From Miltoncostaea oceani (lineage in GTDB: Bacteria > Actinomycetota > Thermoleophilia > Miltoncostaeales > Miltoncostaeaceae): a stretch of DNA of 64,000 bases. The DNA lies in contig NZ_CP064357.1 in assembly GCF_018141545.1 (NCBI RefSeq), positions 496,001 to 560,000 on the forward strand, given 5' to 3'. Below the pieces are notes generated by a model that saw only the letters and a program-made list of their open reading frames with translations, had not been told where the DNA came from and did not search any database. Of the stretch, positions 5,531 through 47,359 are shown piece after piece. The translations under genes were made by a program, and so were the position numbers. Each line of letters opens with the position of its first letter. The stretch's first letter is position 1.

Positions 5531-5566
5531 GCGTGGGTGCGACCGTGGCCTGGGTCATGCGACGAA

Positions 5567-5653
5567 AGTCGGCTGCTCTACCAAGCTGAGCTATACCCCC
5601 TCGAGACGGTGATGGGGGCACCAGGCCTCGAACCTGGGACCATCCGATTACAA
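5567..5653 (-). tRNA. tRNA-Thr(TGT) halves in 3'-5' order, unit B (candidate permuted gene)
   Basis: Read on the minus strand, a 3' half comes first (5653-5613: TTGTAATCGG of the anticodon arm, T arm CCAGG/CCTGG, acceptor TGCCCCC, discriminator A), then a 12-nt linker (5612-5601), then a 5' half (5600-5567: acceptor GGGGGTA, D arm, and GCCGACT ending at T33). Joined 5' to 3' the halves give a 74-nt tRNA-Thr with loop CTTGTAA. The acceptor strands pair across the linker. The 5' half continues into TTCGTCG, which pairs with CGAC of its own anticodon stem. It is unclear whether the product is joined and used; a decayed tandem tRNA is the alternative. Confidence 0.45.
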
Positions 5654-5787
5654 GCCTCGGCGGAGGACGACTCCGCGTCTTCGCCCGTCGGCACTGCTCT
5701 TCACTGAGCTACGAGGCTGGCCTGGGCACCGAGGTCGCGCGCCGCCGCCGCCGGGCGCCGCGCGTGATTTACTTCGGTGCCGACGAG
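5654..5787 (-). other. 134-nt structured segment between tRNA-Thr halves
   Basis: This segment lies between a 5' half (ending at 5788) and a 3' half (starting at 5653) of tRNA-Thr, so it may be an intervening sequence or a spacer. It contains two foldable pieces. Bases 5654-5717 close with GCCTCG/CGAGGC and hold a D-arm-like GCTC/GAGC and a T-arm-like GCGGAG/CTCCGC hairpin. Bases 5727-5779 close with CACCGA/TCGGTG on the minus strand. It is too short for a normal group I intron and has no recognised splice motifs. Confidence 0.4.
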
Positions 5788-5874
5788 AGTCGGCTGCTCT
5801 ACCAGCTGAGCTATACCCCCTCGAAGTAAGTGAGTGGGGGCAGCAGGGATCGAACCTGCGACCTTCCGATTACA
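5788..5874 (-). tRNA. tRNA-Thr(TGT) halves in 3'-5' order, unit A (candidate permuted gene)
   Basis: On the minus strand a 3' half (5874-5835: TGTAATCGG, T arm GCAGG/CCTGC, acceptor TGCCCCC, discriminator A) is followed after 14 nt (5834-5821) by a 5' half (5820-5788: acceptor GGGGGTA, D arm GCTC/GAGC, GCCGACT). Joined in normal order they make a complete 73-nt tRNA-Thr(TGT) with one mismatch (27-43). The break is between T33 and T34, the same as in unit B. The 5' half is followed by CTCGTCGGC, able to pair with GCCGA of the anticodon stem. The linker begins CTCAC, like the trailers of intact tRNAs in the array. Confidence 0.45.
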
Positions 5875-5912
5875 CGTGATCGCGCCCCTCTCACACGAGG
5901 GCCGGCCGATCA

Positions 5913-5986
5913 AGGGGGCACCAGGAGTCGAACCTGACTCTTCCGGGCCCGTTGCCCGGCAGCTCTGCCAACTGAGCTATACCCCT
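5913..5986 (-). tRNA. tRNA-like gene, anticodon undetermined
   Basis: Acceptor (A)GGGGTA/TGCCCC(C), D arm GCTC/GAGC and T arm TCAGG/CCTGG with loop TTCGACT are good, but the first acceptor pair is A-C. The anticodon arm is CCGGG/CCCGG around CAACGGG, shifted by one base, and the loop has no T at position 33. Its acceptor and D arm resemble the tRNA-Thr halves downstream. It may be a decayed tRNA-Thr or a non-translational tRNA-like element. Confidence 0.4.
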
Positions 5987-6035
5987 ACGAGCGGAGCGTG
6001 TTGCTCCGATGATGCGTTCCGCACTACAAACAAGG

Positions 6036-6108
6036 CTCCCCGGGCAGGATTCGAACCTGCGACCTTCGGAGTAACAATCCGCCGCTCTGCCGGCTGAGCT
6101 ACCGGGGA
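6036..6108 (-). tRNA. tRNA-Asn(GTT)
   Basis: Cloverleaf with acceptor TCCCCGG/CCGGGGA, anticodon stem GCGGA/TCCGA (one mismatch), loop TTGTTAC, T arm GCAGG/CCTGC, discriminator G as expected for tRNA-Asn, no CCA. Confidence 0.93.
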
Positions 6109-6149
6109 TCAGTGACGCTGGCAGGCAGCGTCGATGTCATTCACGAACA

Positions 6150-6221
6150 TGAACCGAGAGGGTTTCGAACCCCCGACCTCCCGCACGTCACGCGGGCGCT
6201 CTCCCACTGAGCTACCGGTCC
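6150..6221 (-). tRNA. tRNA-Val(GAC)
   Basis: Cloverleaf with acceptor GGACCGG/TCGGTTC, anticodon stem CCCGC/GCGGG, loop GTGACGT with T33, T arm GGGGG/CCCTC, discriminator A, no CCA. It is the promoter-proximal tRNA of the minus-strand array. Confidence 0.93.
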
Positions 6222-6446
6222 AGGAAAACGGGCCAGGCGCGGCCTCCTAGGTTCTGTCTGTGCCTCTCCCGTCCTCTCGGTTTGGAGCCCGCTGGCCGAT
6301 CCACTCCCCTGCTCGCCTCAGCAGGATCAATGTGGACGCGGCGGCTTTCTCCCTACGGGGGGCCTCTCTTCAGGTGCTTCGGGTCTGTCTCAGGAGGTCT
6401 GGCTCTCTTTCGGTGGGGGTTCGAGGTTGTTTCAGGGCAACAAAAA

Positions 6447-6466
6447 GGGCGGCCATTTGGCCGCCC
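6447..6466 (-). terminator. Rho-independent terminator, minus strand
   Basis: An 8-bp perfect stem (6447-6454 with 6459-6466; GGGCGGCC paired with GGCCGCCC) and 4-nt loop is followed on the minus strand by TTTTTGTTG. It lies 29 bp after the stop of the 23-codon ORF and 225 bp before tRNA-Val. Confidence 0.85.
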
Positions 6467-6495
6467 CGGTGGTTCCTCTGGAGATCGTCCTCGAG

Positions 6496-6567
6496 CTAGC
6501 TCGAGAGGAACTCCTGTCGGAATCCGGGGCAGGCGGGGGCGACCGGCCGCTTGGAGCGGACGGGCAT
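6496..6567 (-). CDS. Possible 23-residue leader peptide or small protein
   Basis: ATG at 6567 is preceded by AGAAGGA with 10 nt spacing, and the 23-codon frame (starting MPVRSKRPVAPA) ends at TAG just before the terminator. It is rich in Arg, Pro and Val, residues whose tRNAs are encoded in the array downstream, so an attenuation-like leader is imaginable. It could equally be chance. No homologue is recognised. Confidence 0.3.
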   Translation of the reverse strand: MPVRSKRPVAPACPGFRQEFLSS

Positions 6568-6851
6568 GGGTCGCGGATTCCTTCTGTCACCGGTGGAGGT
6601 CATCGCCAAGAACGTAGCACCTCCGTCAAGGCTTGCATGCGAACTCGTTGGAATAGGTCTCACACGAGCTCGAGACAGGGGCGGCGGACGTTGGCGCCGT
6701 CACCGACGTGATCGCTCTTCGTGTCTGGGTTTACACGGGCCACGACCGTCGCCGTTCACCTCGGTTGTCCGGCGACCGTGTCAGCGGAGAAACGGCTATG
6801 CCCGAGGCCTCGCTGCCTAGCGTCGCCCTGTCCAACAACCAAGGAGACACC

Positions 6852-7091
6852 GTGGCACCTCTTGGAATCATCCTGATCATCATCGGAGCCGTGCTGCGCT
6901 TCGGCCTGACGACCGCGGTGGAGGGCGCTCGCCTGGATGTGATCGGGCTGATCCTGATGATCGCCGGCGTCGTCGCCCTCATGGCGGGCGTGCTCACGAG
7001 CGAGCGGTTCTCGCGCACGAAGACCCGGGAGCGCACCGAGGAGGGTCCGAACGGCAGCGAGCGGGTCACCGAGACCAAGCGCGGCCTCTGA
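6852..7091 (+). CDS. Small membrane protein, DUF6458-like
   Basis: I chose GTG at 6852 because AAGGAG lies 5 nt upstream; longer in-frame starts have no such site. The 79-residue product has two hydrophobic segments (about residues 3-21, GIILIIIGAVLRFGL, and 28-46, DVIGLILMIAGVVALMAG) and a charged tail rich in Arg, Glu and Thr. The spacing and the DVIGLILMIAG stretch match DUF6458 proteins, short two-helix membrane proteins common in Actinobacteria with unknown function. It is monocistronic, ending at a strong hairpin shared with the convergent gene. Confidence 0.75.
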   Translation: MAPLGIILIIIGAVLRFGLTTAVEGARLDVIGLILMIAGVVALMAGVLTSERFSRTKTRERTEEGPNGSERVTETKRGL

Positions 7092-7127
7092 GGTCCGGGC
7101 GGGGCTGACTCAGTTCCCGTCGTCAGA

Positions 7128-7168
7128 CTGAGGGGCGACCGAGCATGATGCTCGGCCGCCCCTCAGTC
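7128..7168. terminator. Bidirectional hairpin between convergent genes
   Basis: ACTGAGGGGCG pairs with CGCCCCTCAGT through an inner stem CCGAGCAT/ATGCTCGG, giving a long hairpin between the gene ending at 7091 and the one ending at 7238. There is only a weak T run, as is common in high-GC genomes. Confidence 0.75.
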
Positions 7169-7237
7169 GTTCTCGTACCCGAACGGTCGGGGCAGGCGAG
7201 GCCAGCTCCGAGTCCGCCCGCCCGCCGCCCCTGAGCT

Positions 7238-8470
7238 CTACCGGAAGATGACCCTCGCCCGCGAGATCCCGAGCGGGCGCCCCTTCGCTGTGAAGCGCAT
7301 CTCGAGGATGTAGCGGCCGGTGGCGACCCGCGCCGGACGTCGGTAGGTGATCGAGACGGTCCGCGGCCCGGAGGCGCTCACTCGGCCGATCCCGATCGAC
7401 CGTCCCTTCCCGACAAGACGCAGCTGCAGGCGCCCGGCGGTGGGCAGGCGGACCCTGGTGGTCAAGAGCCGGGCCCGGGTCCTGACCCGGAGGGCCTTCG
7501 CCTTGATCGGCTTCTTCGCCACGACACGCTGGGTCGGTCCGGTGAACTGCGCCGAGAGAATCCGCAGGCGCCACCGCGTGACCGCCGGCAGAGTCCCTGA
7601 TGACGCCGCCAGGTGAACCAGGGCAGTACCCGAGGCCGGGACCTCGAAGTCCACGATCCCCGTCACATCGGCGTTGACGAAGTTGTTGTTGTTGATGCGC
7701 TGATCGCTGTCGTCTCGGACACTGACGTTCGTCGTCCCGACGATGGACGAGAGCTCGAACGACGCTTTCGTTCCGGGAGCGAGCTTGAAGTAGAGGATGT
7801 CGGTGTCGTTGCTGGTCTCGAAGCCGCCCTCATAGACGGTCGCGGCGGCCAGGGGTCCGAACGCCTGCGCGGGGATGTCGTTGGGCTCTGGAGTGGCCAC
7901 GCCAGGGAACGCCGGAAGCGGGGTCGGGTCCAGGGCGTCGGTCGGACCCCCGGTCGGGTCGGTGATCGTGACCCTGTAGGCGCAGCCCGGCGTTTCGTTA
8001 TCGCCCCCGTTCACCCTCAACTGGTAGAGCTGACTCGGACCGCCGAAAACGCCTGGCGTCGTAATGGTCTCCGAGTCCGAGGTCACTCCCGGGTAGGTCT
8101 CACCGGTGGAGATCAGATTACCCTCGATACGTTCTGAGAGGCGAAACCTGACCGAGCGGAACCCTCCGGTGGTGCAGCTAGGGCCCGGGTTGGTGACCTC
8201 GTAGTTGATCCTCACCTGGCGCTGGGGACGTAGCTGGAGGAGGAAGAGGTCGACGTCTTCCGAGACCTGGATCGCGCCCGTCAGGCCCTCGGGCCCGACC
8301 GGACCGACTGCCTGGAAGGCGTTGTCGTTCGGCTCTACCTCCGCGGTCGGCGCCCCGGTCGCGATCGCCGGCGCCAGCGCGATCATCCCGGCTCCGATCC
8401 CGAGTGCGGCGAGGTGTCGCCACCCCCGCCTCATCGCGGGTCGCCGAGGGCTCGAGAGCATCGTCATCAT
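7238..8470 (-). CDS. Secreted protein with two PPC-like domains
   Basis: The 410-residue product has an N-terminal signal peptide (about residues 15-42, LAALGIGAGMIALAPAIATG). Two copies of the bacterial pre-peptidase C-terminal (PPC) type domain follow: EPNDNAFQA...VSEDVDLFLLQL (about 46-80) and EPNDIPAQAF...TSNDTDILYFKL (about 195-235), each with the typical EPN start and acidic D-x-D strand that may bind calcium. The last 100 residues are Arg-rich beta strands (RLRTRARLLTTRVRL). PPC domains usually accompany secreted proteases but no catalytic domain is present here. It faces away from the neighbouring genes and shares a terminator with the small membrane protein. Confidence 0.75.
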   Translation of the reverse strand: MMTMLSSPRRPAMRRGWRHLAALGIGAGMIALAPAIATGAPTAEVEPNDNAFQAVGPVGPEGLTGAIQVSEDVDLFLLQLRPQRQVRINYEVTNPGPSCTTGGFRSVRFRLSERIEGNLISTGETYPGVTSDSETITTPGVFGGPSQLYQLRVNGGDNETPGCAYRVTITDPTGGPTDALDPTPLPAFPGVATPEPNDIPAQAFGPLAAATVYEGGFETSNDTDILYFKLAPGTKASFELSSIVGTTNVSVRDDSDQRINNNNFVNADVTGIVDFEVPASGTALVHLAASSGTLPAVTRWRLRILSAQFTGPTQRVVAKKPIKAKALRVRTRARLLTTRVRLPTAGRLQLRLVGKGRSIGIGRVSASGPRTVSITYRRPARVATGRYILEMRFTAKGRPLGISRARVIFR

Positions 8471-26970: not shown

Positions 26971-28854
26971 GTGGCTTTCGCACATGGTTACGTCTCCCTG
27001 GACGAGCTGCTGGACTGGGTCCGCGCCCACCCTCTCGGCGACGGTCGCTTCGTGCCCGTCTGCATCTGGGGCAGCCGCGGTATCGGCAAGTGCGTCGCCC
27101 CGGACACACCGATCGTCTTGAACGGCGAGCGGATCACCATCTCCGCGGCCTGGGATCGCTGGGCGGGGGAGCCGAGGCCCGACGGAGACGGCTTCTGGGC
27201 CTCCTCGACGAAGCAACTTCGGACCGTCTCTGTCGACGGTGATCTGCGACTGGCCTCCGGCGAGGTGGTCCACTTCTACCGCCAGCAGGTCAGCGAACCC
27301 GGGCGGACGGTCGTGCTGGAGTCCGGCGAGAGACTCACGATGACCCGCGCGCATCGCCTGCGCACCCTCTCGGGTTGGAGAAACGACCTCCGGGTCGACG
27401 ACCTCGTGGCGGTGCCGGCACCCTCCGTCTCAGCGCGCCCGCGCAACGCCGGGCACATCGAGACACCCCCTCACATCGAGTGGCGTCGGATCGCCGCGGT
27501 GGAGGAGATCCGCCTGGAGGGCTGGGTCTACGACCTCGAGGTGGCGGAGCACCACAACTACCTGGCCGCCGGAATCGTGACCCACAACACCCAGGCGCTC
27601 AAGCAGTACACGGTCGAGAGGGGCATCGGCCTGCGCGTCATCCAGCCCGCCCACCTCTCCCAGGGCTCGGATCTGGTCGGCATCCCCTTCATCGACCAGG
27701 AGACCCGCAAGACCGTCTACGCCCTCCCGGACCGTCTCCCCAAGCCCGACGACGAGGATGTGCGCCGCGGCGGCATCCTCTTCCTCGACGAGATCAACCG
27801 CGCGAACCTCGCCGTCCTGCAGGGCCTGATGGAGGTGATCGGCGAGGGGACCATCGGCCAGTCCGGCTGGGAGCTCCCCGAGGGCTGGATGGTCGTCGCC
27901 GCCGCGAACCCGAACATCCCGGGCTACGACGTCAACACGATGGACGACGCCATGGTCGGCCGGATGCTCCACTACTCGCCGGGCTTCTCATCGGCGACCT
28001 GGACTCGCTGGGCGACCGAGAACAACGTCGCCCGGTCGGTCGTCAACTTCGTGCTCCAGAACCCGGACCTGGTGGACGGCGGTGAGTCCGAGCTGCCGCA
28101 GGAGGTCCGACCCACGCTGAACCCGCGCACCGCCTACTACCTGGCTTGCCTCTATGAGGCCGGTATGCCACTGAGGGTCCTCGACGTGATCGCGAACGGC
28201 CTCTGGGGAGATGAGGCCGCTCAGAACTTCCTCACCCATCACCTCGACACCGAAGCCCCGCTCTCGGGTGGACAGATCCTCCGCGGCGGCTGGCAGCCGA
28301 CCGTCGACCAGTGGGTCGCCGGCGACCGGTTCGACCTCCTGCGCGCCTCGAGTGAGCTCCTGATCTCGATGCTGTCCGGCAACCAGGCCGTACGCTCGCG
28401 CGCCGCCGAGGGCACCGCGATCTGGATGGCCTATCTCCCGCAGAGCCTCTTCGTCGAGATGGTCGTCTCGATCGGCGAGGCCTGCCCTGAGTGGCTGCCG
28501 GTCATCCTCACCTACGCCGAGACCGGAGTCGGCGCACGCATGCCGCGCAATCGCTCGATGCTCCGCCGGCCCGCTCAGCGCGAGATGGTCCAGCAGCGGC
28601 AGGGTCGCACCGAGCGTCGGCGCGTCGAGGAGAGCGCACGCGAGGAGCTCGTCGCCCTGCCGCCGGCGCGCTCGAACGGCGGCCCGGAGATCCCCGGACC
28701 CGACGATGCGGTCGAAGCTCCCCCTGCGCCTCCCGCGCCCGCCGGCGCCGGCTCGATCCGCCCGCTCGGGCGAGATGACAGCGCCGGCGCCGACGACGAC
28801 CTGCCGTTCACCCGACCCGACACCAGCCAGTTCCAGCTCCCTGACTTCGACTGA
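26971..28854 (+). CDS. MoxR-type AAA+ ATPase interrupted by a mini-intein
   Basis: The 627-residue precursor contains a MoxR-like AAA+ ATPase. Its Walker A is GSRGIGK at 34-40 and resumes with T207 after an intein of 166 residues (41-206). After splicing the P-loop reads GSRGIGKTQ and the protein has about 461 residues. Walker B is GILFLDEINRAN (about 262-273) and sensor 1 is VVAAANPN. The C terminus is a disordered Pro/Ala/Asp-rich tail. MoxR ATPases remodel metal-containing or structural protein complexes, often with a VWA-domain partner, which is not seen in the window. The start is GTG at 26971. Confidence 0.88.
   Translation: MAFAHGYVSLDELLDWVRAHPLGDGRFVPVCIWGSRGIGKCVAPDTPIVLNGERITISAAWDRWAGEPRPDGDGFWASSTKQLRTVSVDGDLRLASGEVVHFYRQQVSEPGRTVVLESGERLTMTRAHRLRTLSGWRNDLRVDDLVAVPAPSVSARPRNAGHIETPPHIEWRRIAAVEEIRLEGWVYDLEVAEHHNYLAAGIVTHNTQALKQYTVERGIGLRVIQPAHLSQGSDLVGIPFIDQETRKTVYALPDRLPKPDDEDVRRGGILFLDEINRANLAVLQGLMEVIGEGTIGQSGWELPEGWMVVAAANPNIPGYDVNTMDDAMVGRMLHYSPGFSSATWTRWATENNVARSVVNFVLQNPDLVDGGESELPQEVRPTLNPRTAYYLACLYEAGMPLRVLDVIANGLWGDEAAQNFLTHHLDTEAPLSGGQILRGGWQPTVDQWVAGDRFDLLRASSELLISMLSGNQAVRSRAAEGTAIWMAYLPQSLFVEMVVSIGEACPEWLPVILTYAETGVGARMPRNRSMLRRPAQREMVQQRQGRTERRRVEESAREELVALPPARSNGGPEIPGPDDAVEAPPAPPAPAGAGSIRPLGRDDSAGADDDLPFTRPDTSQFQLPDFD
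27091..27588 (+). other. Mini-intein in the ATPase P-loop
   Basis: The inserted 166 residues begin with CVAPDTPIVL (block A, Cys1), include GRTVVLESGERLTMTRAH (block B with T-x-x-H), and end with WVYDLEVAEHHNYLAAG (block F) and VTHN followed by extein Thr. All splicing residues (Cys1, TRAH, His-Asn, Thr+1) are present. There is no LAGLIDADG or HNH endonuclease, so it is a splicing-only mini-intein. Confidence 0.9.
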
Positions 28855-28980: not shown

Positions 28981-30120
28981 ATGAGCCGAGGCCGTGGGAA
29001 GACCGACAAAGCGCAGAGCACGCCGCGGACCCGGACCCCTGTGGTCGCACCGGCGATCACACCGAGAGTCCCGGCGACCGGGCTGACGCCGATCAGCGAC
29101 CTCTGCTCCGACGACCCGGTCCTCACCGAGATCCCGGAGATTCCGGGGCTCGAGATCGCAGAGGACGGCAGCATGTTCCTGCGCGACGGCACCCGGACGC
29201 TCGGGCTCTGGCGCGTGGCCAAAGGCATCGCGATCGTCGACCGCGGGTTCGGATACATCTTCAAGACTGTCCCCGCCAATCTCCATGACCGAAGCTCGTT
29301 CGTCTACTCGATCGCCCCCGACGGCACGCGTCAGTTCTCCCGTTGCGATGACAAGGGGCGCCGGATGCCCCATTGTGAGTTCGAGCCTGCGGTCGTCAGG
29401 CCTGACGGCACACGCGAGTGGTACATCAACGGGCGCCTGAGTCGCACCGACGGACCGGCGATCGAGAGGCCCGACGGCACGAGCGAGTGGTTTCGCGCCG
29501 GCCGCCGGCACCGCAAGGACGGACTGCCGGCAGTCGAATACAGAGACCAGGACAACAAGGAGTGGTGGGTCAAGGGAAAGCGCCACCGCGACGACGGACC
29601 GGCGGTCACCGGTGCCGACGGCTACCAGGAGTTCTGGCAGGAGGGCCGGATGCACCGCGACGACGGACCGGCCAAGATCCTCGCGAACGGCGCCGGAGTC
29701 CACTACTACCGCGACGGGCAGGTTCACCGCGATGACGGCCCGGCTGTCGAGTCGGTCGTAGCCGGTGGGGTCCGGCGCGAGTACTGGCAGCACGGCCGGC
29801 TGCACCGAACCGACGGCCCCGCGGCCGAGAGTCCCGGAACCTCCATCTGGTACCGGGATGGAGAACGCCACCGCGACGGAGGTCCGGCCGTCATCGAGGG
29901 CGATTACACCGCCTGGTTCCGCCGTGGTGAGCGCCACCGCGAGGACGGGCCGGCGGTTCAGCAGGACGGGAAGCCCGATGAGTTCTGGCTCGATGACGAG
30001 AAGATCGACGAGGAGGAGTGGCGACGACGTACACGGCACCTCCGGCCGACGCCAGCGGCGACGCCGGCGGCTGCCGGCGCCAGCGTTCGGTCGCTGCTCC
30101 AGAGAACCTCCCGAAGCTGA
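28981..30120 (+). CDS. Protein with eight tandem HRDDGPA-type repeats
   Basis: TACCAT (28966-28971) lies 9 nt before the ATG, and the N terminus MSRGRGKTD carries the RGR motif. After a 140-residue leader, the sequence from about residue 140 to 335 consists of eight repeats of roughly 21-25 residues built around G-x-x-H-R-x-D-G-P-A (GRLSRTDGPA, GRRHRKDGLPA, GKRHRDDGPA, GRMHRDDGPA and so on). Similar MORN-like repeats occur in giant viruses, large phages and some bacteria, where they form beta-hairpin stacks. The C-terminal EFWLDDEKIDEEEWRR resembles a cap. Binding partners are unknown; the repeat number probably varies by recombination. Confidence 0.8.
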   Translation: MSRGRGKTDKAQSTPRTRTPVVAPAITPRVPATGLTPISDLCSDDPVLTEIPEIPGLEIAEDGSMFLRDGTRTLGLWRVAKGIAIVDRGFGYIFKTVPANLHDRSSFVYSIAPDGTRQFSRCDDKGRRMPHCEFEPAVVRPDGTREWYINGRLSRTDGPAIERPDGTSEWFRAGRRHRKDGLPAVEYRDQDNKEWWVKGKRHRDDGPAVTGADGYQEFWQEGRMHRDDGPAKILANGAGVHYYRDGQVHRDDGPAVESVVAGGVRREYWQHGRLHRTDGPAAESPGTSIWYRDGERHRDGGPAVIEGDYTAWFRRGERHREDGPAVQQDGKPDEFWLDDEKIDEEEWRRRTRHLRPTPAATPAAAGASVRSLLQRTSRS

Positions 30121-31988: not shown

Positions 31989-34574
31989 TCAGTCCGTGGA
32001 CTCTGCGTCCATGTCGGCAAGCGCCAGCAGGACGGCACCGACACCATCGGGAGTCTGTCCGGGCATCCACTGCTCGACCTTCGGTGGGAGCGCCCCCAGC
32101 GGATCCCTGCCGGATATGAGGCTCCGCGGCTCAGAGCCTGCGGTGAGGCGGTATAGCTCCCCGCGTTGGCCGGTGCGGCGGGTGTGGCTGATCGCCAGCC
32201 AGGGCGCCCGCCATACCGCGAGGACGGGCCCGCGATCGGTCCGGCCACGCACGATCACCGGGTCGACGTCCCGTTCGGCCACCGCGACGGCCAGGATGAG
32301 GAAGTACTCGGGTTGCCTGGGCAACTCCTTGTAGAGCTCCAGGCCGCCGTTGCGCTCCTGGGCGATGATCCCGTAGTCGCGCTCGAGGATCTCGATGGCG
32401 CGTCCGTAGCCCTGCTGCTCCGGATTGGTCGCCTCGAGCGCGACCTCGAGGACAACGGCCGCGCTGACGGCGATCCCGAGGCGGGGTCTCATCTCATCGC
32501 ACAGACGCGTCAGGTCCTCAGTGGAGCAATGCTCGAGGAGCACCCGGGCGAGTCGCTCGCCACGCTCGAAACGGAGCATCTGCGCCGAGCCGAACGCGCG
32601 CCGCGGAGCTTCGGCGTGGAGCAGTGAGAGGAGGACCGCAGCGAGACTCGCGGCCGCCACCCGCTCCGCCGGCACCGGTTCGTCGCCGGGTGCGCTCAGC
32701 ACCTCGATGGCTTCGAGTACGACCGCGCCCTCTTCATGGGAGGGCCAGAGCTTCGCGGCAATCCCATGGAGGACGAGCCGCGCGGCGAGCACCCGAACGA
32801 TCGGGGGCGCGCCCGCCGCCCGCACGAGCAGGCGGTGGATCCATCGGCGCAAGCGATTCCGCTGGAGTTCGGTGAGCGTGTCGATGACCTCGGGCAGCGG
32901 GAGGTCCTCGACCACGACATTCTCCGGCGGATCTTCCATCTCGTCGCCGGTCTCGGCGGTCAGCTCCACCGAGCTGAGCTTCGTCTCACCCTCCTCCCCG
33001 GGCACCTGTGGAAGAGAGAGCGCCCATCGGGTGAGCGGGTCGCCGAGGACCGCGATGAGCCCGTCAAGGTGCTCCTCGAGGGTTCGCCGGCGCGCGCGGC
33101 GCATCACCGGCTGGTCGCCCGTCGTCGCCGCCTCAGACTCCGCTTGCGCCGCTGAGGACGCCGGGGCGGGCTCGATGAGCTGCATGCGGAGCAGGTAGGG
33201 TCGCAGGGCGTCGATGTCAGCGAGGAGCTGCTCGAAGGCATCACCGAGCACGAGTCGCGTCGCGGTCGTCATCGCCGTGCCGACCACGCGGACCGGCCGG
33301 CGTGTCGCGGCCCCCATGTCGGTCACGTAGACCCTGTTGCTGCGGGTCTGTGCCCCTTGGAGGACCAACTGGAGCGCCGCCCCCGGCGGCAGGGGCGGCC
33401 TGGTGGTGTGATTCAGGCACCCCGCCGGTACCTCGCGCGCGTCATCGATGATGAAGGCCCCCGCCTCCTCATCGAAGACCTCGATCAGTGCTGATTCCTC
33501 AAGCGGACCGGCCAGATGGAGAACGGTTCCCCCGGGCGCCGCCACCGCGGCCAGCAGCAGCGAGCGCACCTGGGATTCGCGGCTCGGCTCGGGCCCACGC
33601 AGACCCGCCACCCCGCGAATGGGCTGATCCGTCTCCTGCGGGGACAGCGGCCCCTCGATCTCACCGATAAGGCCTACTTCGCAGTTGCCGTCGGCGACCG
33701 TTGAGAGCAACGCAGGGGCCGACAGGTTCGGGCTCCCGGTGAGTGCCCACCACTGCTCTCCGATCCGCCACGAGATGATCTTGCCGTGGTGGTGCGGCCG
33801 CTCCAGCGTCCAGGCGAGCCGGCCTCCACGCGCCGCCAGGTAGCCCTCCAGTCGCGCCCCGTCGACCGTCGTGTCCGGGGCCACGAAGACGGTCAGGGCG
33901 GACGGCGCGAGCCGATCCACCAGAGCCTCGAGCGCCTGGATGCGCGAGTCGTGGAAGGGTGCGTAGGCGATCAGCTCATCGACGGGGCCGCGCGGCATCT
34001 GATCGATGATCGGCTGACCCAACGACGAGACCATCCGAGGCCCCTGGTAGGTGGCAGTTCCGCGCTCGAGCAACAGAGCGGCCCGCTCCATGGCATCGCC
34101 GGCGCCGGGCGACAGGATGACTTCCGAGTCGCTCAGCCCCCTCAGAAAGCCCGCCGCCTGGGCGAAGGTGCCGGGGACCGACTGCCCATCACCGCGGATC
34201 ACCGTCCAGAGCTCCGAGTTGCCGTGCCAGCCGGCGAGAGTCAGGTTCCCGGAGCCGACCGCGAGCGTCACCGCCTCGGGTCCGGCGACCACGATCACCT
34301 TCGGATGGAAGGCGCCCCGCGGGGACACCGCCCGGGCGTCGAGGTACTTGAGGCCGGCGTGGCGCACCGCGACGGGGTCGGAGCTGACCATGGCCGAGTC
34401 CGAGATCACCGTGGCTCTCGCCTGTAGGCCTCGGGTCCTCTGGAGGACCGCCCTCTCGAAGAAGTCCAGGTTCGCCGAGTAGGTCAGGAACAGGGCTTCC
34501 TCGGCCTCGTCCACATCGTCGAACAGCCCGATCGGCAGCCGGCTAGGCGTGGAGGCGGCCACGCATCTCCTCAC
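31989..34574 (-). CDS. Phospholipase D-like (HKD) nuclease-type protein
   Basis: The product is 861 residues from a GTG start that overlaps the upstream gene by 32 bp; a later start is possible. The N-terminal 280 residues hold two PLD-type half-sites: FHPKVIVVAG followed by LAVGSGNLTLAGWHGNSE (about 88-120) and HHHGKIISW followed by WALTGSPNLSAPAL (about 252-283). H-x-K and the downstream G-S-x-N are the catalytic pattern of PLD-superfamily nucleases. The remaining 550 residues are largely helical and unrecognised. PLD-type enzymes with large partner domains occur in restriction and phage-defence loci. The coupled partner encoded upstream supports a two-protein machine. Confidence 0.72.
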   Translation of the reverse strand: MRRCVAASTPSRLPIGLFDDVDEAEEALFLTYSANLDFFERAVLQRTRGLQARATVISDSAMVSSDPVAVRHAGLKYLDARAVSPRGAFHPKVIVVAGPEAVTLAVGSGNLTLAGWHGNSELWTVIRGDGQSVPGTFAQAAGFLRGLSDSEVILSPGAGDAMERAALLLERGTATYQGPRMVSSLGQPIIDQMPRGPVDELIAYAPFHDSRIQALEALVDRLAPSALTVFVAPDTTVDGARLEGYLAARGGRLAWTLERPHHHGKIISWRIGEQWWALTGSPNLSAPALLSTVADGNCEVGLIGEIEGPLSPQETDQPIRGVAGLRGPEPSRESQVRSLLLAAVAAPGGTVLHLAGPLEESALIEVFDEEAGAFIIDDAREVPAGCLNHTTRPPLPPGAALQLVLQGAQTRSNRVYVTDMGAATRRPVRVVGTAMTTATRLVLGDAFEQLLADIDALRPYLLRMQLIEPAPASSAAQAESEAATTGDQPVMRRARRRTLEEHLDGLIAVLGDPLTRWALSLPQVPGEEGETKLSSVELTAETGDEMEDPPENVVVEDLPLPEVIDTLTELQRNRLRRWIHRLLVRAAGAPPIVRVLAARLVLHGIAAKLWPSHEEGAVVLEAIEVLSAPGDEPVPAERVAAASLAAVLLSLLHAEAPRRAFGSAQMLRFERGERLARVLLEHCSTEDLTRLCDEMRPRLGIAVSAAVVLEVALEATNPEQQGYGRAIEILERDYGIIAQERNGGLELYKELPRQPEYFLILAVAVAERDVDPVIVRGRTDRGPVLAVWRAPWLAISHTRRTGQRGELYRLTAGSEPRSLISGRDPLGALPPKVEQWMPGQTPDGVGAVLLALADMDAESTD

Positions 34575-36030
34575 CGAGGTCGGTCACGTGGAGGACCCCG
34601 CCTCTGCGGTCGAGCATCCCGAGCCCGCAGAGGATCTCCGCGAGGGCCCATTGGCGCAGGGAGACGGGGGTCGCCCCCTCCTCCCCGTCCACCCAGAGCT
34701 TCTCGCCGACCTCGTGGAGCCGGCTCGGGATCCAGACGCGGCCGTTGGTGATCCGCATCTTCGAGTAGGCGACCCGCCGCGCCCTGTCCACGAGGGTGTG
34801 GCCGAGCTCGCGCGCGAGCTCTGACAGGGGAGCGTCGGCGTACCGGTCGAGCTCGTGACGGAACCAGACCGGACCGAGGTCGTGGCGCTCGGCCCCGATG
34901 AAGGCAGCGAGAGTGCGCCGCTCCAGGTCCTGGGTCCGGAACGCGCCGAGAGCGAGGTGGCGCAGATGCCGACGCGGCTCATCCTCCTCGGATCGCCGGA
35001 TATCCTCCTCGGCGGGCAGGAGCTCGCCGGCGGCGCCGAGCCGCGGAGGCAGCTCTGCGCGGAAGTCCCTGACGCCGCCGGGCCCGACTGCGCGCGCGAG
35101 TCGGTCCGCGAGGTCGTCCGCTGACATCGGCTCCTCCGCGAGGCGCGCAGCGAGCCACCGCCACAACTCACGCCACGCCGTCACCGAGTAGTTGCGGAGG
35201 ATCGCGCCCTGCCAGGCCGCTGCCACGACTCCCGCGGGTGTCGTGTCGTCGTCGATCGTGGGCCCGAAGCCATGGGCGCGCGTGAAGGCGCCCTCCGCAC
35301 TCGACTCACCGCCACCCGAGAGCGCGTCGAGGAGCATCCGTGTGGTGAGGTGGCGGTTGCGATCGTCAGCGGCCGTCGGTTCGTCGGCCGGCCGTGCACC
35401 GAACAGGGCCTGTCGCAGCCACACTCCGTCAGGCGCCTCGGCGGCCCGGCACAGGCAGAGGTGCGCGGCGGCCTTGATCTCCCCCACTCCCACGACGTCC
35501 TGATCTGCGAGGTCGAGCATGCCCTCGAGGCCGCTGCGCACGGCCGGCTCATCGGCGGCCTCACCCAAAGTCGGCGGTCGCCCCGGCGCGAGGAGGCCGA
35601 GTCTCAGCAGGACCCCTGTGTAGACGTTGCGGAAGCCGCCCATGCTCATCCCACTGCTGCCCAGGCGCGCGGCCCGGGCGACGTGGAGGGAGTCGGCGAC
35701 GATGAACCCGCCGACCCGCTCCTCACCGTGAGCGACCGTCAGCTCGCGCCGATGCGGCTGATGGAGGAAGTGGATCGCCGCGGCGACGACTTCAAGGCGC
35801 CGCAACAGGGCGAACGCCCCGTCAGCATCCAATCCACGGTCAGCCGCGGCGGCGGCGCCCAGCAGGTTGATCGAGTAGTAGCGGGCCTGGCGGGTGGTGG
35901 TGATGACGCCCGGGACCAGGTGATCGACCAGGCCGGACACCGGAGTCTCGACTCGCAGCGGGAACCGCCCGCGCGCGTCGGCCATCCCCTTCGAGGTCCA
36001 GACCGGGCCTTCGACACCGACGAGCGCCAC
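34543..36030 (-). CDS. Partner of the PLD-like protein, unknown
   Basis: The 495-residue protein starts at a GTG 7 nt after TAGCGT on the minus strand, so the two-gene operon is probably read from a leaderless mRNA. The N terminus has GLVDHLVPGVITTTRQARYYS (about 33-53), which resembles the start of DUF6361-like proteins (LFPG...T-x-x-RARYF). The rest is helical with Arg/Asp clusters. I am not sure of the family. The long overlap with the PLD gene suggests co-translation; defence against foreign DNA is an inference from this context. Confidence 0.55.
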   Translation of the reverse strand: MALVGVEGPVWTSKGMADARGRFPLRVETPVSGLVDHLVPGVITTTRQARYYSINLLGAAAAADRGLDADGAFALLRRLEVVAAAIHFLHQPHRRELTVAHGEERVGGFIVADSLHVARAARLGSSGMSMGGFRNVYTGVLLRLGLLAPGRPPTLGEAADEPAVRSGLEGMLDLADQDVVGVGEIKAAAHLCLCRAAEAPDGVWLRQALFGARPADEPTAADDRNRHLTTRMLLDALSGGGESSAEGAFTRAHGFGPTIDDDTTPAGVVAAAWQGAILRNYSVTAWRELWRWLAARLAEEPMSADDLADRLARAVGPGGVRDFRAELPPRLGAAGELLPAEEDIRRSEEDEPRRHLRHLALGAFRTQDLERRTLAAFIGAERHDLGPVWFRHELDRYADAPLSELARELGHTLVDRARRVAYSKMRITNGRVWIPSRLHEVGEKLWVDGEEGATPVSLRQWALAEILCGLGMLDRRGGVLHVTDLGEEMRGRLHA

Positions 36031-40752: not shown

Positions 40753-41130
40753 CAGGAGTTGGACTTGCATGGCGACGTGCACGCAAGGGTCGCCGACTCG
40801 CCGGCGGCGGGCCGGCGTAGCCATCGGGTGGTGCCCGCGGTGCGTAGGCCCCGGCCACATTCTTGGGCCCCAGGTGCATGAACACCCAGGGCCCGGACGC
40901 CACAGGTCCCTTTGGGAGGTCCACGTGGCTGGCGTTACCCGAGCCACCTATGGCGCACTCCGACCGTGCCATCGGCCATTGGGGTCGGTCCAGAGGGAAC
41001 TGTGGCAAGTCGCCCTTCCAGCCGAACGCCGCGAACGAACCGGCGGGGCGGGCAGCTGGAGCTCACCGAATGGCGGGAGAATCCGCAACGGTCCGAAGGA
41101 AAATCACATATTCGTGCTATTCTCTCGACC
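40753..41130. other. Intergenic region
   Basis: No gene is supported. TATTCT (41118-41123) lies 7 nt before the ATG of the XRE gene and is a likely -10 box. Confidence 0.5.
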
Positions 41131-41454
41131 ATGAACGGTTCAGATCTCGTATTCGTCGCGCGCACGCGGGCGGGCCTCAGTCAGGCGGAGCTCGGACGTC
41201 GGGCGGGTATGGCACAGAACGCCGTGGCGAGGATCGAGAGTGCCCGGACGCATCCGAGCTTCGAGACCATCCGGGACCTGGTCCGCGCAGCCGGCTTCGA
41301 GCCGGAGATCGAGTTGCGCACCAGAGATGAGTCCTTGCGCTCAGACGCAGGCGAGCGCCTGCGGATGTCCACTCCGGAGCGGGTCAGCCGGGGGATCCGC
41401 GCCGCTCAGGTCGCCCGCCGACTCGTGGGGGTAGCAGCGAGGCAGGAGAGGTAA
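41131..41454 (+). CDS. XRE-family HTH regulator
   Basis: The 107-residue protein has an HTH of the XRE/Cro type at about 8-60 (ARTRAGLSQAELGRRAGMAQ, then VARIESARTHPSFETIRDLV). The C terminus (SDAGERLRMSTPERVSRGIR) probably contacts a partner. It is leaderless from TATTCT and its stop abuts the next ATG (TAAATG), so it is the first gene of a three-gene operon with two nucleotidyltransferase-like proteins, resembling a toxin-antitoxin layout. Confidence 0.88.
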   Translation: MNGSDLVFVARTRAGLSQAELGRRAGMAQNAVARIESARTHPSFETIRDLVRAAGFEPEIELRTRDESLRSDAGERLRMSTPERVSRGIRAAQVARRLVGVAARQER

Positions 41455-42003
41455 ATGGCTCGCGGCCGGAGGTCCGGATCGGAGCCGGCTTCTCCGGGTG
41501 CCCCGCTCGAACCGGAGCGGCTCCTGCAGGCTCTGCACAGAGGAGGGGTGAAGTTCGTCGTGATCGGCGGCTTCGCCGCACTCCTTCACGGCTTCGACCA
41601 ACCGACAGAGGACATCGACATCACTCCTCTGCGCGATCCTGAGAACCTCGTGCGCCTGGCAACAGTCCTGAAAGGCTTGGACGCAGTTGCCCAGGACGCC
41701 GCCGGCCGCGACAACCCGGACTGGCCCATCGACGACCAGCACCTGCGGCTCGCAGAGACGACCTTCCTTCGCACTCGCTTCGGACGACTCGACGTCGTCA
41801 TCAACCCGGCGGGGGCATCCGGGTATCACGATCTCGTCCAGGATGCGATCGCGCTTCAGCTGCCTGACGGACCGGTGATCCTCGTTGCGACGCTCGAGAG
41901 GATCATCTCTTCGAAGAAGGCAGCCGACCGCCCCAAGGATCATGCGGCGCTTCCCTCCCTCTTGGAGCTGCTCGCCCGCAAAGACCACGAAGGCACGAGA
42001 TGA
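41455..42003 (+). CDS. MNT-like nucleotidyltransferase
   Basis: The 182-residue protein has FVVIGGFAALLHG followed by PTEDIDITP (about 40-66), the G-G...D-x-D core of small nucleotidyltransferases (AbiEii/MNT type) that transfer AMP or a nucleotide to a target such as tRNA or a partner protein. A third Asp may be in RLDVVIN (about 116-122). It starts MARGRRSG, the RGR motif. It is translated right after the XRE protein and overlaps the next gene by 4 bp (ATGA). Confidence 0.8.
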   Translation: MARGRRSGSEPASPGAPLEPERLLQALHRGGVKFVVIGGFAALLHGFDQPTEDIDITPLRDPENLVRLATVLKGLDAVAQDAAGRDNPDWPIDDQHLRLAETTFLRTRFGRLDVVINPAGASGYHDLVQDAIALQLPDGPVILVATLERIISSKKAADRPKDHAALPSLLELLARKDHEGTR

Positions 42004-42461
42004 CCTCACCCGCAGGCGCGCCCTTCGACCCCCTCGGCCTCATCGCGCAGCTCAAGGACGCCGGCATCGAGTTCGTGGTCGTCGGCTCTTTCGCGGCGCT
42101 CATCCACGGGTCCCCCCTACCTCCAGTCGAGCTCGAGATCGCTGTCATGGACTCGCCCCGGAACCGCCGCCGGTTCGAGGCGCTGATGAGCGGCCTACCC
42201 GCGACGACCTCAGATGGCGTGCTCTGGTCCACGCCGATGGGTCCACTTCGCGCACTACCAGCCGAGCCAGGTTCGCCCTTGCATGGCGCGCGGCACTCCA
42301 CACCCCTGAAGATCGCCCCAGACCTCACAGTCAACGTGGCGAGCCTCCGCGCCCTCATGGTCTCAGCCACAGAGTCCCCGCGCCCCCAGGACCGCCTGCT
42401 CCGACCGGTGCTCAGTGATCTGCTCGAGCTAACACCCATGGATACAACCACGAAGACCTAG
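42000..42461 (+). CDS. Degenerate nucleotidyltransferase-like protein
   Basis: The 153-residue product repeats the fold start of its neighbour (FVVVGSFAALIHG), but the catalytic D-x-D is replaced by E-x-E (PPVELEIAV) and the second Gly of the GG motif is Ser. It is probably inactive and may bind or regulate the active copy. The two genes look like an old tandem duplication. Confidence 0.7.
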   Translation: MTSPAGAPFDPLGLIAQLKDAGIEFVVVGSFAALIHGSPLPPVELEIAVMDSPRNRRRFEALMSGLPATTSDGVLWSTPMGPLRALPAEPGSPLHGARHSTPLKIAPDLTVNVASLRALMVSATESPRPQDRLLRPVLSDLLELTPMDTTTKT

Positions 42462-43826: not shown

Positions 43827-44135
43827 CTAAGTCAGTTCACTGAGGAGGATGTCCATGACGTCGTCGGCCTCGGCCAACGCCTGAGGCACGGGTTGCCAAG
43901 GCGTCAAGGCATCGCCGTACTCCCAAGCGGCTGTGCCTTCTGCGTCCTCAATCGACGGATGCCAGGTGTCGCCGGCGAATACCCCTTCCGCTGTCCACCG
44001 GGTGATCGCGAAACCCGCGTCATTGTGCTGTAGAAGCAGAAGGCGAGGTCGACTCATCGCTCCTCGCGGCGTTTCGTGTCGTGTTCGTCCGGGCGGGCCG
44101 ATGGCGTTTACCCACGCATACCTCAGGGCGTTCAT
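43827..44135 (-). CDS. Candidate immunity protein for the RHS toxin
   Basis: The ATG at 44135 overlaps the RHS stop (TGATGA), so it is translated with the toxin. The product is 102 residues, or 76 from an internal ATG at 44057 (MSRPRLLLLQHNDAGF). It is acidic (EDAEGTAAWEYGD, EADDVMDILLSELT), as immunity proteins often are. Its identity rests on position only. Confidence 0.6.
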   Translation of the reverse strand: MNALRYAWVNAIGPPGRTRHETPRGAMSRPRLLLLQHNDAGFAITRWTAEGVFAGDTWHPSIEDAEGTAAWEYGDALTPWQPVPQALAEADDVMDILLSELT

Positions 44136-47100
44136 CAGCGGAAAGGCACATGGCGATTTCGCGTGACCGCACCGGTCACTGGGTCGAGGTCCTCAAAGTT
44201 TGCATGCGCTGAGCCTCTCTTCGGGTTGATATCGCCGCGTGCGATTCTAAAGCGCCTCAGGCCATCCTTCGACACGAACACGCCCGATGCTATCTCGTCA
44301 TATCCCCCCAACCAGTGGTGTCCCCCATTCAGAACCTGCCCAGCATCCTGGGCAGGAGCCGACTCGTTCACAGGTCGGCGGTGCGGTTTCGAGAACCCCT
44401 GCTGTATAGCTTTCGGGCCCTTGAGGAGTCGGGTCCATGGCAAAGCCCCGGCGGCCTGACTCGCGACTTCGTCAGCGTCTTTCCGTCGACCAAGTGAGTA
44501 GCCAAGGCCGTAGCCCGGCACCACTTGGTAGGCAATGGGATGCACCCGGTCCACGAGGAAGCCCATCGTGGCTGTGGACCCGGTGTTCACCCACCAGCTT
44601 CCGGCGTCCTGGAGGCATCCGACCGGGTTCCCGCAGAGCCCGCTGGGGTCCGTGAACTGACCCGGGGCGTTCCAGACGTAGGCGTAGAGGTTTACGTCGC
44701 CGCCGGCGAACCCGATCGGGTCCTCGGAGATGAACCTTCCCAGGCCCGGGCTGTAGTAGCGGGCTCGGCTGAACTGGAGGCCAGTGCCGTCCGACTCACG
44801 CCCCGTGAACTGGGTCGGGTTGTCCGAAGGGGCCCCGGTTACCGAGGGCGCCCCGAACGGTTCGTAGCCGTATTCGGTGAGGACACCTCCCGATGCGTCG
44901 GCGAGAGCAACGGTGCTACCGAGAGCGTCGGTGAGGAGCGCCTCGACCCCGGAAGCATCGGTTCGGGTCAGGGCCGAATCGACGCCGAGGCCGCCGAGAA
45001 TCTGGACGGCGTCGGAGCCCTCAGTCTCGACGATGGCGTTCTCGCCGTCGTATCGGTAGCCGGTGGATGTCGCGCCGATGGTGGCCTCGCGGCGGCGGCC
45101 AAAGGCGTCGTAGCCGAAGGTCGCCCCAGGCGTGCCGCCCGTCAGGCCGGTCAGCTCGCCGCGGGCGTTCCAGGCGTAGGCCTGGGTGCCGTCGCCGGTG
45201 AGGTTGCCGATGTCGTCGTAGGAGTAGGTCGCGGTCCCACGGGTGGTGAGGCGGTTGGCCGCGTCGAAGGTGCCGGCCCCCATCGCCTGCGGGAGCCCCA
45301 TGCGGGCCCAGAAGCCAGACACCTCGTGGCGCCGGCCGGCGGGGTCGTTGCCGTAGTCGATCCGCCCGAGTTCACCACCGCCGTTGGCGTAGGTGATCCG
45401 CGTGAGCCGGTCAGCGGCGTCGTGGGTGTAGGTCATCGAGGCCCCGCCGGGGAGGGTGACGCCGGTGGGTCGGTTGGCGTCGTCGTAGGTGAAGACGGGG
45501 GCCTGGGTGCCGCGGGTGATGCCGGTGAGGCGGTCGGCGGCGTCGTAGGCGTAGGTCGTCTGGTCCTGGCCGGCGGTGTCCATGGTGGTGCGCCGGTCGG
45601 CGGCGTCGTAGCCGTAGCTGACCGTGCCGGTCGGCGTCGCCTCGGAGGTGAGGCGGTCGAGGCCGTCGTAGGCGAGGGTGATCGTGCCGTTGGCCGAGTC
45701 GTCGGCTTCGGTCAGTCGGCCGCCGTCGTCGTAGCTGTAGTCGATGGTGCTCTCGTAGCCCGGAGGCGTGCCCACGGTCTCGTCGAACCCGACGAAGGTC
45801 TGGCGGTCGAGTAGGTCGTAGCCGAGGCGGGTGACCTGCCCCTCCCGGTCAGTAGTGGTCGTGAGGTTGCCGTTGGCGTCGTAGGTGAAGGTGTCGGAGT
45901 CGTCGAGTGGGTCGATGCGGGCGGTGACCCGGTCCATGACGTCGTAGATGTACTCGGTCGTGTTGGACCGGGCGTCGGTGAGGGCAGTCAGGTTCCCGTT
46001 GTTGTCGTGGGTGAAGGTCGTCCGCTCCCCGGCGGCGTTCTCGGTTGCGGTGACGCGGTTGAGCGCGTCGAACGTGGTCGTCCCGGTGCGGCCGGTCGCG
46101 TCGGTTCCCGCGGCGGGGCGGCCCCCCGCGTCGGTGAACGACTGTGCGGCGTTGCCGAGCTCATCGATCACCGACACCGCCGCGCCGCGCGAGTAGTCGA
46201 TCGCGGTCTCGTGGCCGAGGGGGTCGGTGACGAGGGTCGTCTGGCCGTCCTCGTCGGAGGTCACGGTGGTGGTCTTGCCGCGTGGGTCGGTGACTGCGCT
46301 GAGCGCACCGGCGGACGTGTAGGCGTAGCCGGTCGTGTGATCGAGGGGGTCGGTGACCGACGCGACGAGGCCGTAGTTGGGCTCGTAGGTCATCTCAGTC
46401 GTGACGGCGCCCGGGGTGCCGGCGAGGCGGGTGATCGACGTGACGTCGCCGCGGTCGGAGTAGGTGAAGTCGGTGTGGCGGCTGAGGGGGTCAGTGATCC
46501 GGGTGACGAGGTCGCCCTCTGCCTGCCGGGTGTAGGTGGTGGTGAGGGCCTCGGCGCTTCCGTGGGCGTCGGTGACCGACGTCGGGTAGCCGGCGGTTGA
46601 GAATTCGGTGCGTGCCACGATCCCGCGGGGATCCGTGACCTCGGTGGCGGTCACCTTGCCGGCGCCGTCGACGGTGTAGTCGAAGCCGTAGGTGGTGTCG
46701 TCGGCTTGGGTCTGCTCCACGACGCGGCCGGCGCCGTCGTAGGTGTTCTCGATGAAGGTGATGCCGCGGGCGTCGGTGATGCTCGACACCCGGGTGTAGT
46801 CGCTTGTCGCGTATTGGGTGACTCCCCCGCCGGGGTTGGTGACGCTCGAGAGCCAGCTGTTGACGGGCGCGTAGGTGTAGGTGACGGTCCGCCCGAGGTT
46901 GTCGCGGGCTGAGGTGATCCGGTCGCCGTTGTCGTAGGTGGGCTTGATCCACCGGCCGTTCGGGGACCGAATGATGGAGATCCGGCCGATGGAGCTACTG
47001 ATCTTCGGCGTCTCACGGACGATGGTCACCTCGTTGCCGAAGCGGTCCCGGATCGCGGTGAGGACCCCCCGTAGGGCGGTGTTCGAGAACGAGAGCTCGG

Positions 47101-47359
47101 TGCCGTCGCGCAGTCGGATCTGCCAGCCGTCGGCGGTCTGCTCGGAGTTCACCGCACGGAAGCTGAGGCGGGCCCCAAAGAACGGGCCGGGGGTTGCGGT
47201 GTGTTCATAGACCGCGGACTCCTGGCTGGTCCCAGGTGAGATCCGCTCGAAGGGGATCCGGCCGCCCGCGGGGAGGATCAGCGACGCCGACTGGTAGGGG
47301 ACGTCGTTGACGAGGTGCAGGTCATAGCCGTCCTTGGTGGACGACCCGAAGGTGCGGTA
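44135..47359 (-). pseudogene. 5'-truncated RHS-repeat polymorphic toxin gene
   Basis: The longest start-to-stop ORF is 1,005 residues from GTG 47152, but the same frame stays open and RHS-like upstream to a TAG at 47362-47360 without a start codon, so the true N terminus (secretion and plug domains) is missing. The body has many YD repeats (YDAADRLTGITRG type), then the RHS core end ARYYSPGLGRFISEDPIGFAGG and NLYAYVWNAPGQFTDPSGL. The last 125 residues are the variable toxin, with HHWLGGYDEIASGVFVSKDG and ANFEDLDPVTG; this resembles a polymorphic toxin tip of unproven activity. It may be a silent cassette. Confidence 0.8.

Follow-up and report, generated by a model that had tools for sequence, protein, structure and literature searches.

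Do two overlapping genes of Miltoncostaea oceani, one of which encodes a protein of the phospholipase D (PLD) superfamily, form a defence module, and does that module belong to a catalogued system? The pair lies on the minus strand of a 64,000-nucleotide stretch (the window, contig positions 496001-560000), in which the first gene, hereafter the partner, occupies 34543-36030 (495 amino acids, GTG start) and the PLD gene 31989-34574 (861 amino acids, GTG start), both as open reading frames (ORFs) found where an initial annotation had placed them. That annotation took the two for a defence module, and the proposal is supported by the context of their relatives, in which BREX, type I and type III restriction-modification (R-M), Zorya-like, CATRA/CHAT and Abi genes are found on mobile elements. 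We conclude that the pair is probably a mobile, helicase-free two-gene anti-phage (or anti-plasmid) module, comparable to the ZacA-ZacB core of the Azaca system.

A conserved gene pair with a two-site PLD catalytic region

Judged by their sequences, the two are genuine genes; chance ORFs were rejected because the relatives span most of both genes, the distance matrices of partner and PLD protein correlate (Spearman 0.82, with 0 of 2000 permutations equally high), and the ratio of nonsynonymous to synonymous substitution rates (dN/dS) is 0.12-0.27 in eight gene comparisons from four locus pairs of close relatives. The base composition by codon position of both genes resembles that of the neighbouring genes, and the PLD gene is present as a single copy in the genome. 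The reading frames overlap at 34543-34574, by 32 base pairs (bp) if the PLD protein starts at its first GTG, or by 20 bp if it starts at a second GTG at 34562, four codons in. Since the overlap is usually 4 or 8 bp in the relatives and is absent from the Mycobacterium avium pair, the exact figure of 32 bp reported initially is not meaningful; the tight coupling of the two genes stands. A single promoter for the pair, also proposed, could not be confirmed, as a sigma-70 consensus scan returned no site, a result that says little because the genome is high in GC.

The two-site PLD catalytic region proposed for the second protein is borne out by alignment. The first half-site (residues 87-121; 34212-34316, minus strand) comprises H90-x-K92 in the string GAFHPK, S108-x-N110 in GSGN (107-110) and N119-x-E121, while the second (residues 263-299; 33678-33788, minus strand) comprises H263-x-K265 (HGK), G280-S281-x-N283 (GSPN) and N297-x-E299. 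Every one of the 20 aligned relatives carries all of these residues together with two aspartates (59 and 209). An aspartate placed as in HKD enzymes was not found, as no invariant or near-invariant column shortly after either HxK holds an Asp in these 20 rows. Some PLD nucleases use HxK-N-E as their catalytic residues, and Tdp1 also lacks the HKD aspartate. The 20-sequence alignments of partners (A3) and PLD proteins (A4) cover 20 of 26 loci, with L017, L024, L034, L042, L043 and L045 outside them.

Profile matches to the PLD protein were partial: PLDc_2 in Pfam (E 1e-4, below its cut-off); ZacB (E 7e-8, over 52 of 861 residues, 79-130), PDC-M27B (E 4e-6) and DrmC (E 0.001) in PADLOC; and the DISARM DrmC model in NCBIfam (14.5 bits against a cut-off of 133). 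A sequence search of the PDB with the PLD profile matched Tdp1 across 32 residues at E 0.0096 and ranked a designed protein above it (0.0032); owing to this weak match, a fold search was preferred. With Foldseek, ranks 1-31 for the predicted PLD model were all Tdp1 (E 1e-6 to 4e-5), with two PLD-type restriction enzymes farther down, SauUSI at rank 49 and NgoAVII at rank 50. The model aligned with Tdp1 at a VIA Z of 19.4 (295 residues, root mean square deviation (rmsd) 3.6) and with a bacterial PLD at 18.4 (296 residues, rmsd 3.9), and we treat these matches as tied because their Z scores lie within about one unit. Both marks of the PLD superfamily, two HxK...N half-sites and a two-lobed fold, are accordingly found, the former in 20 of 20 rows and the latter at Z up to the Tdp1 value. 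The model supports a phosphodiesterase, and genomic context suggests that it cuts DNA; a lipid enzyme was considered and rejected. Beyond this region, residues ~331-861 (31989-33584, minus strand) form a C-terminal extension in which no family was matched in Pfam, PADLOC or NCBIfam. Modelled at low confidence as strands followed mainly by helices, it is possibly a regulatory or interaction region.

Remote similarity to the Azaca system

The start of the partner had been described as DUF6361-like, a claim that finds no Pfam match and is recovered by profile-profile comparison of 20 relatives with four DUF6361/ZacA proteins (E 8e-6). PF19888 (DUF6361) itself occurs in 5 of 299 genomes sampled from the class, the source genome (G000) not being among them. 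Each of the four intact DUF6361 genes has a PLD gene directly after it; PADLOC identified the DUF6361 proteins as ZacA in 4 of 4 cases (E 4e-117 to 4e-130) and the two PLD neighbours scanned as ZacB (E 8e-148 and 8e-152). At all four loci, the gene after ZacB is large and encodes a helicase-type P-loop, and PMC12278908 gives ZacC as a superfamily 1 or 2 (SF1/SF2) helicase.

When the 20 PLD relatives were compared with the four ZacB proteins, 288 columns aligned at E 4e-13 (best of 40 column shuffles 0.073, reversal 0.59). For the 20 partners against the four ZacA proteins, the alignment covered the first 65 columns (best of 40 column shuffles 0.17, reversal 0.47), and wrong pairings gave 0.22 or worse. 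In the window partner, the stretch alignable to ZacA/DUF6361 (hhalign, 65 columns, E 8.2e-6) corresponds to residues ~19-83 (35782-35976, minus strand). The pair thus appears to be remotely homologous to ZacA and ZacB.

Azaca and the pair share their gene order (a ZacA-like gene, then a PLD gene), the N-terminal ZacA motif and the alignable two-domain PLD region. They differ in that the partner cannot be aligned to ZacA past the first ~65 columns, and in the first PLD site, where the four ZacB proteins read RNLT; the aligned PLD proteins carry S-x-N there and at the second site alike. No full-length ZacA match was obtained in the first gene, distant relatives reaching E 0.0007-0.012 over the N-terminus only. 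Likewise, a ZacC model built from the four loci detected no ZacC beside any pair examined (at L010 and L045 the contig ends soon after the pair), and ZacC is absent from the window flanks and from the source genome, where a 56-residue generic helicase match was all that appeared. Because a full ZacA match and ZacC, two catalogued defining features, are both lacking, we do not file the pair as Azaca. The initial annotation had been unable to name a system; the nearest one is Azaca.

Could the pair nonetheless be a divergent or decayed true Azaca, whose ZacC was lost or whose helicase is encoded elsewhere? Remote homology and the shared ZacA-ZacB order would be expected on this account, which is also favoured by one relative (G289, L010 4236-7652), where an SF1 helicase gene with an RNase H-like domain lies just downstream of the pair and is 49% identical to the gene upstream of a true ZacA-ZacB-ZacC locus (L046 11123-14392, G142). 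However, ZacC stands beside none of the pair loci, weak helicase matches farther off were seen in L040, L015 and L016 only, and the source genome gave just the short generic match. Since the ZacC-less form spans three phyla and is under purifying selection in the pairs tested, we do not regard the pair as decayed, and we consider this explanation unlikely.

A direct family assignment of the partner was abandoned, as Pfam, PADLOC and NCBIfam gave nothing convincing: no match appeared at E <= 0.1 in any of the three, nor for the window partner in PADLOC up to E 10. A PDB sequence search with the partner returned nothing credible (best E 0.5). The partner may end in a winged helix, a weak signal for which one member of 20 reaches E 9e-6. 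Such a domain raises the question of a toxin-antitoxin pair, in which the PLD nuclease would be the toxin and the partner both antitoxin and repressor. The overlapping genes, a possible DNA-binding C-terminus encoded upstream of the nuclease and the frequent location on plasmids are in line with this arrangement. On the other hand, the similarity points toward Azaca and to no toxin-antitoxin family, the winged-helix evidence is as weak as described, and both proteins are far larger than usual toxins and antitoxins; we judge this interpretation very unlikely.

Other systems with PLD proteins were compared as well. DISARM DrmC and other small defence PLD nucleases share the PLD catalytic motif, and weak DrmC matches were obtained; however, the DrmC profiles span just 61-381 positions, and DISARM was rejected given the score under the NCBIfam cut-off and the lack of DrmA and DrmB among the ten window proteins scanned. 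The PADLOC candidate PDC-M27 resembles the pair through the PLD motif stretch of PDC-M27B, with E-values down to 8e-12 for a distant relative, but only ~40-160 of 635 profile positions were matched and the partner had no PADLOC match, on which grounds it was also rejected. Tdp1, SauUSI and NgoAVII have the two-lobed PLD fold, yet Tdp1 is a eukaryotic repair enzyme and SauUSI is titled an ATP-dependent restriction endonuclease, while no ATPase was seen in the pair. Among the literature titles and abstract openings searched, none names this gene pair, and DUF6361 and BPTD_3080 returned no papers. In a BREX study (PMC12839542), the passages on HKD nucleases name fusions to BrxL and to helicases and do not mention this pair.

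Defence genes around the relatives

The relatives of the pair are found inside or next to several kinds of defence genes. In G561 the pair stands inside a BREX type 2 operon, in the order PglW part, PglX, extra ORFs, pair, BrxC/PglY, and in Myroides inside a type I R-M operon, in the order methylases, hsdS, pair, hsdR, all in one direction. The M. avium pair is preceded by AbiEii toxin genes and followed by a type III methyltransferase and a BPTD_3080 restriction endonuclease. Upstream of the G291 pair lie a tyrosine recombinase gene, at a distance of ~60 bp, and the gene for a type I HsdR. On Polaromonas pPNAP01, OmpA, EH-signature and SNF2 genes precede the pair as a Zorya-like cluster, an order that we take to be the Zorya layout. 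In addition, type I R-M genes accompany the Roseovarius pair, an AbiEii gene lies upstream in Sphingopyxis, CHAT/CATRA or NACHT genes occur at 3 of 4 Streptomyces records, and a gene at the G397 locus matches mad8 (E 3e-40).

To quantify this pattern, a listed defence gene was sought within 8 kb of ten plasmid pair loci and in ten control 20-kb stretches of the same plasmids, and was found at 7 of 10 pair loci versus 0 of 10 controls (Fisher p 0.003), with a keyword list (R-M, Abi/toxin, Zorya set, CATRA/CHAT, NACHT, BREX) drawn up post hoc, after the pair loci were known. The positive loci were L016, L018, L019, L032, L035, L038 and L041, and the negative ones L033, L036 (DEAD helicase, Sir2) and L040 (SNF2 helicase). 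The count left aside L015 and L017 as relatives of L016 (L017 with a NACHT gene), L039 as a relative of L038, L037, which had no control and would be a miss, and the distant loci L034, L042 and L043. A looser count gave 9 of 10 versus 2 of 10 (p 0.005), the loosely defence-like controls being L057 (Fic, multiubiquitin/ThiF, UvrD) and L061 (DUF262). From this context we infer a defence function for the pair. The initial annotation had held that homologues consistently placed in housekeeping operons lacking defence genes would speak against its proposal; the opposite was observed, with relatives lying inside or beside defence genes on mobile elements.

Membership of BREX itself was rejected for the window pair, as no core genes (BrxC/PglY, PglX, PglZ) were present among the ten window proteins scanned; such genes are present around the G561 relative. 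Two arrangements were noted separately. At L021, extra ORFs occupy 5400-7760 between PglX and the pair in the BREX type 2 operon, one of them uracil-DNA glycosylase-like by eye, which suggests a cassette site inside BREX. On a Sphingobium plasmid (L040 3979-12967), an SNF2 gene, a gene of 587 amino acids without a Pfam match and the pair are co-directional, possibly as a four-gene variant.

Distribution and pairing

The distribution of the pair is sporadic. In the class sample, the PLD protein was matched in 5 of 299 genomes (two of them partially) and the partner in 3 of 299, with both genes in the same genomes for the three full pairs; neither gene was found in three congeners sampled, and the partner occurred in 4 of 396 genomes of the phylum. 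Plasmid records yielded 5 matches with the window partner and 17 with the window PLD protein, and 15 and 27, respectively, with the Polaromonas queries; the partner was found in 20 plasmid records. Overall, the pair spans Actinomycetota, Pseudomonadota and Bacteroidota and is mostly plasmid-borne, with hosts that include Streptomyces, M. avium, Polaromonas, Undibacterium, Roseovarius, Sphingopyxis, Sphingobium, Prevotella and Myroides. A pattern scan of genome contigs recovered only two Solirubrobacterales loci and, because this search is insensitive, gives no measure of rarity. Nearly all of the annotated members encountered are labelled hypothetical proteins, one Myroides PLD gene being named phospholipase D-like.

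This distribution bears on a further explanation, namely a housekeeping Tdp1-type repair enzyme with an adaptor, which would clear proteins stuck on DNA ends. Tdp1 supplies the closest solved structures, and the HKD aspartate is missing in both. A gene pair that is this sporadic in class and phylum, often plasmid-borne and situated in R-M and BREX operons does not behave as a housekeeping function would, and we hold this explanation to be extremely improbable.

The partner gene adjoins the PLD gene in 25 of 26 distinct loci with the PLD family, L024 being the exception, a figure that is not an unbiased rate because most loci were found through the partner. A locus entered this count if the profiles, each built from 20 sequences (partners or PLD proteins), placed a PLD-family ORF there at E <= 1e-5; L027 and L029, which are Azaca loci, were excluded. 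A less biased estimate comes from the 17 plasmid records found by the PLD protein alone, of which 12 were examined and had an adjacent partner in 12 of 12 (H14, H15, H18, H21 and H22 lie outside this count). L044 holds a partner fragment without a PLD gene, and L042 has its partner divided over two frames. More distant versions of the pair at L034 and L043 show the reversed order, PLD gene first.

Among 50,697 phage records, no relative of the window partner or of the Polaromonas PLD protein was found. Viral contigs gave no relative with queries A1 or A2 and one with A7. On this IMG/VR contig (L045 1-10445) the pair lies beside phage head-like genes, a transposase-like or insertion sequence element and a Fic-like protein, all recognised by eye.

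Proposed mechanism and its weighing

We infer for the pair nuclease activity, a substrate, complex formation, sensing and phage resistance, which could operate as follows. The partner would be translated just ahead of the PLD protein, their stop and start overlapping. The PLD protein, a predicted two-lobed phosphodiesterase of the Tdp1/PLD fold whose two HxK-N-E half-sites would form one active site, would be the effector and cut nucleic acid, most likely DNA. The partner may bind this effector, sense an infection signal on DNA and restrain the nuclease until then; sensing and restraint are guesses based on its position and the weak winged-helix signal. Together, the two would act like the ZacA-ZacB core of Azaca without the ZacC helicase and, in the several relatives inside or beside BREX and type I and III R-M systems, the pair may be an extra effector.

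Several observations weigh against a defence module of this kind. Lipases and synthases also have the PLD fold, and their Z scores are tied with that of Tdp1. The predicted models, for which three sequences could be used, are of limited quality: the mean predicted local distance difference test score (pLDDT) is 53 for the PLD protein overall, better across much of residues 90-310, and 43 for the partner, which was excluded from the fold search. The three closest sequences alone reach E 0.013 against ZacA (best shuffle 0.12) and 6e-4 against ZacB (best shuffle 0.075), a marginal similarity, and the link to Azaca therefore rests on the wider family. The Undibacterium and Polaromonas pPNAP03 loci have no annotated defence gene nearby. 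Finally, the window neighbours are not defence genes by PADLOC, and the surroundings are no classic defence island.

A bolder version, doubtful though conceivable, sees the pair as a self-contained plug-in effector: an uncatalogued, widespread, helicase-free cassette of nuclease and sensor that moves between BREX type 2 and type I/III R-M systems, might rely on their methylation to avoid harming the host, and would destroy phage DNA or protein-capped DNA ends through its Tdp1-type site.

If the pair does act in defence, a family spread over three or more phyla, whose partner escapes Pfam, NCBIfam and PADLOC, goes unnoticed by current finders. It would also mean that the ZacA-ZacB core needs no helicase of the kind found in Azaca in order to function and that BREX and R-M operons gain and lose such cores, which would make the division between sensing and cutting directly testable.

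Other genes of the window

The neighbourhood in the window adds little support for defence. The only suggestive neighbour, 5 kb from the pair (40912-42461, plus strand), resembles a toxin-antitoxin set and consists of a helix-turn-helix gene, a DUF6036-like nucleotidyltransferase gene (E 0.005, below cut-off) and one further small ORF. Farther along, 44135-47152 (minus strand) encodes an Rhs/YD-repeat protein with an Rhs core. On the other side of the pair, 28981-30120 (plus strand) encodes a repeat protein built around a DGPAV motif, with a weak DUF6745 match, and 26971-28854 (plus strand) a MoxR-like AAA ATPase with an intein (Intein_splicing, E 4e-13) that apparently interrupts the P-loop between its GK and the T that comes next.

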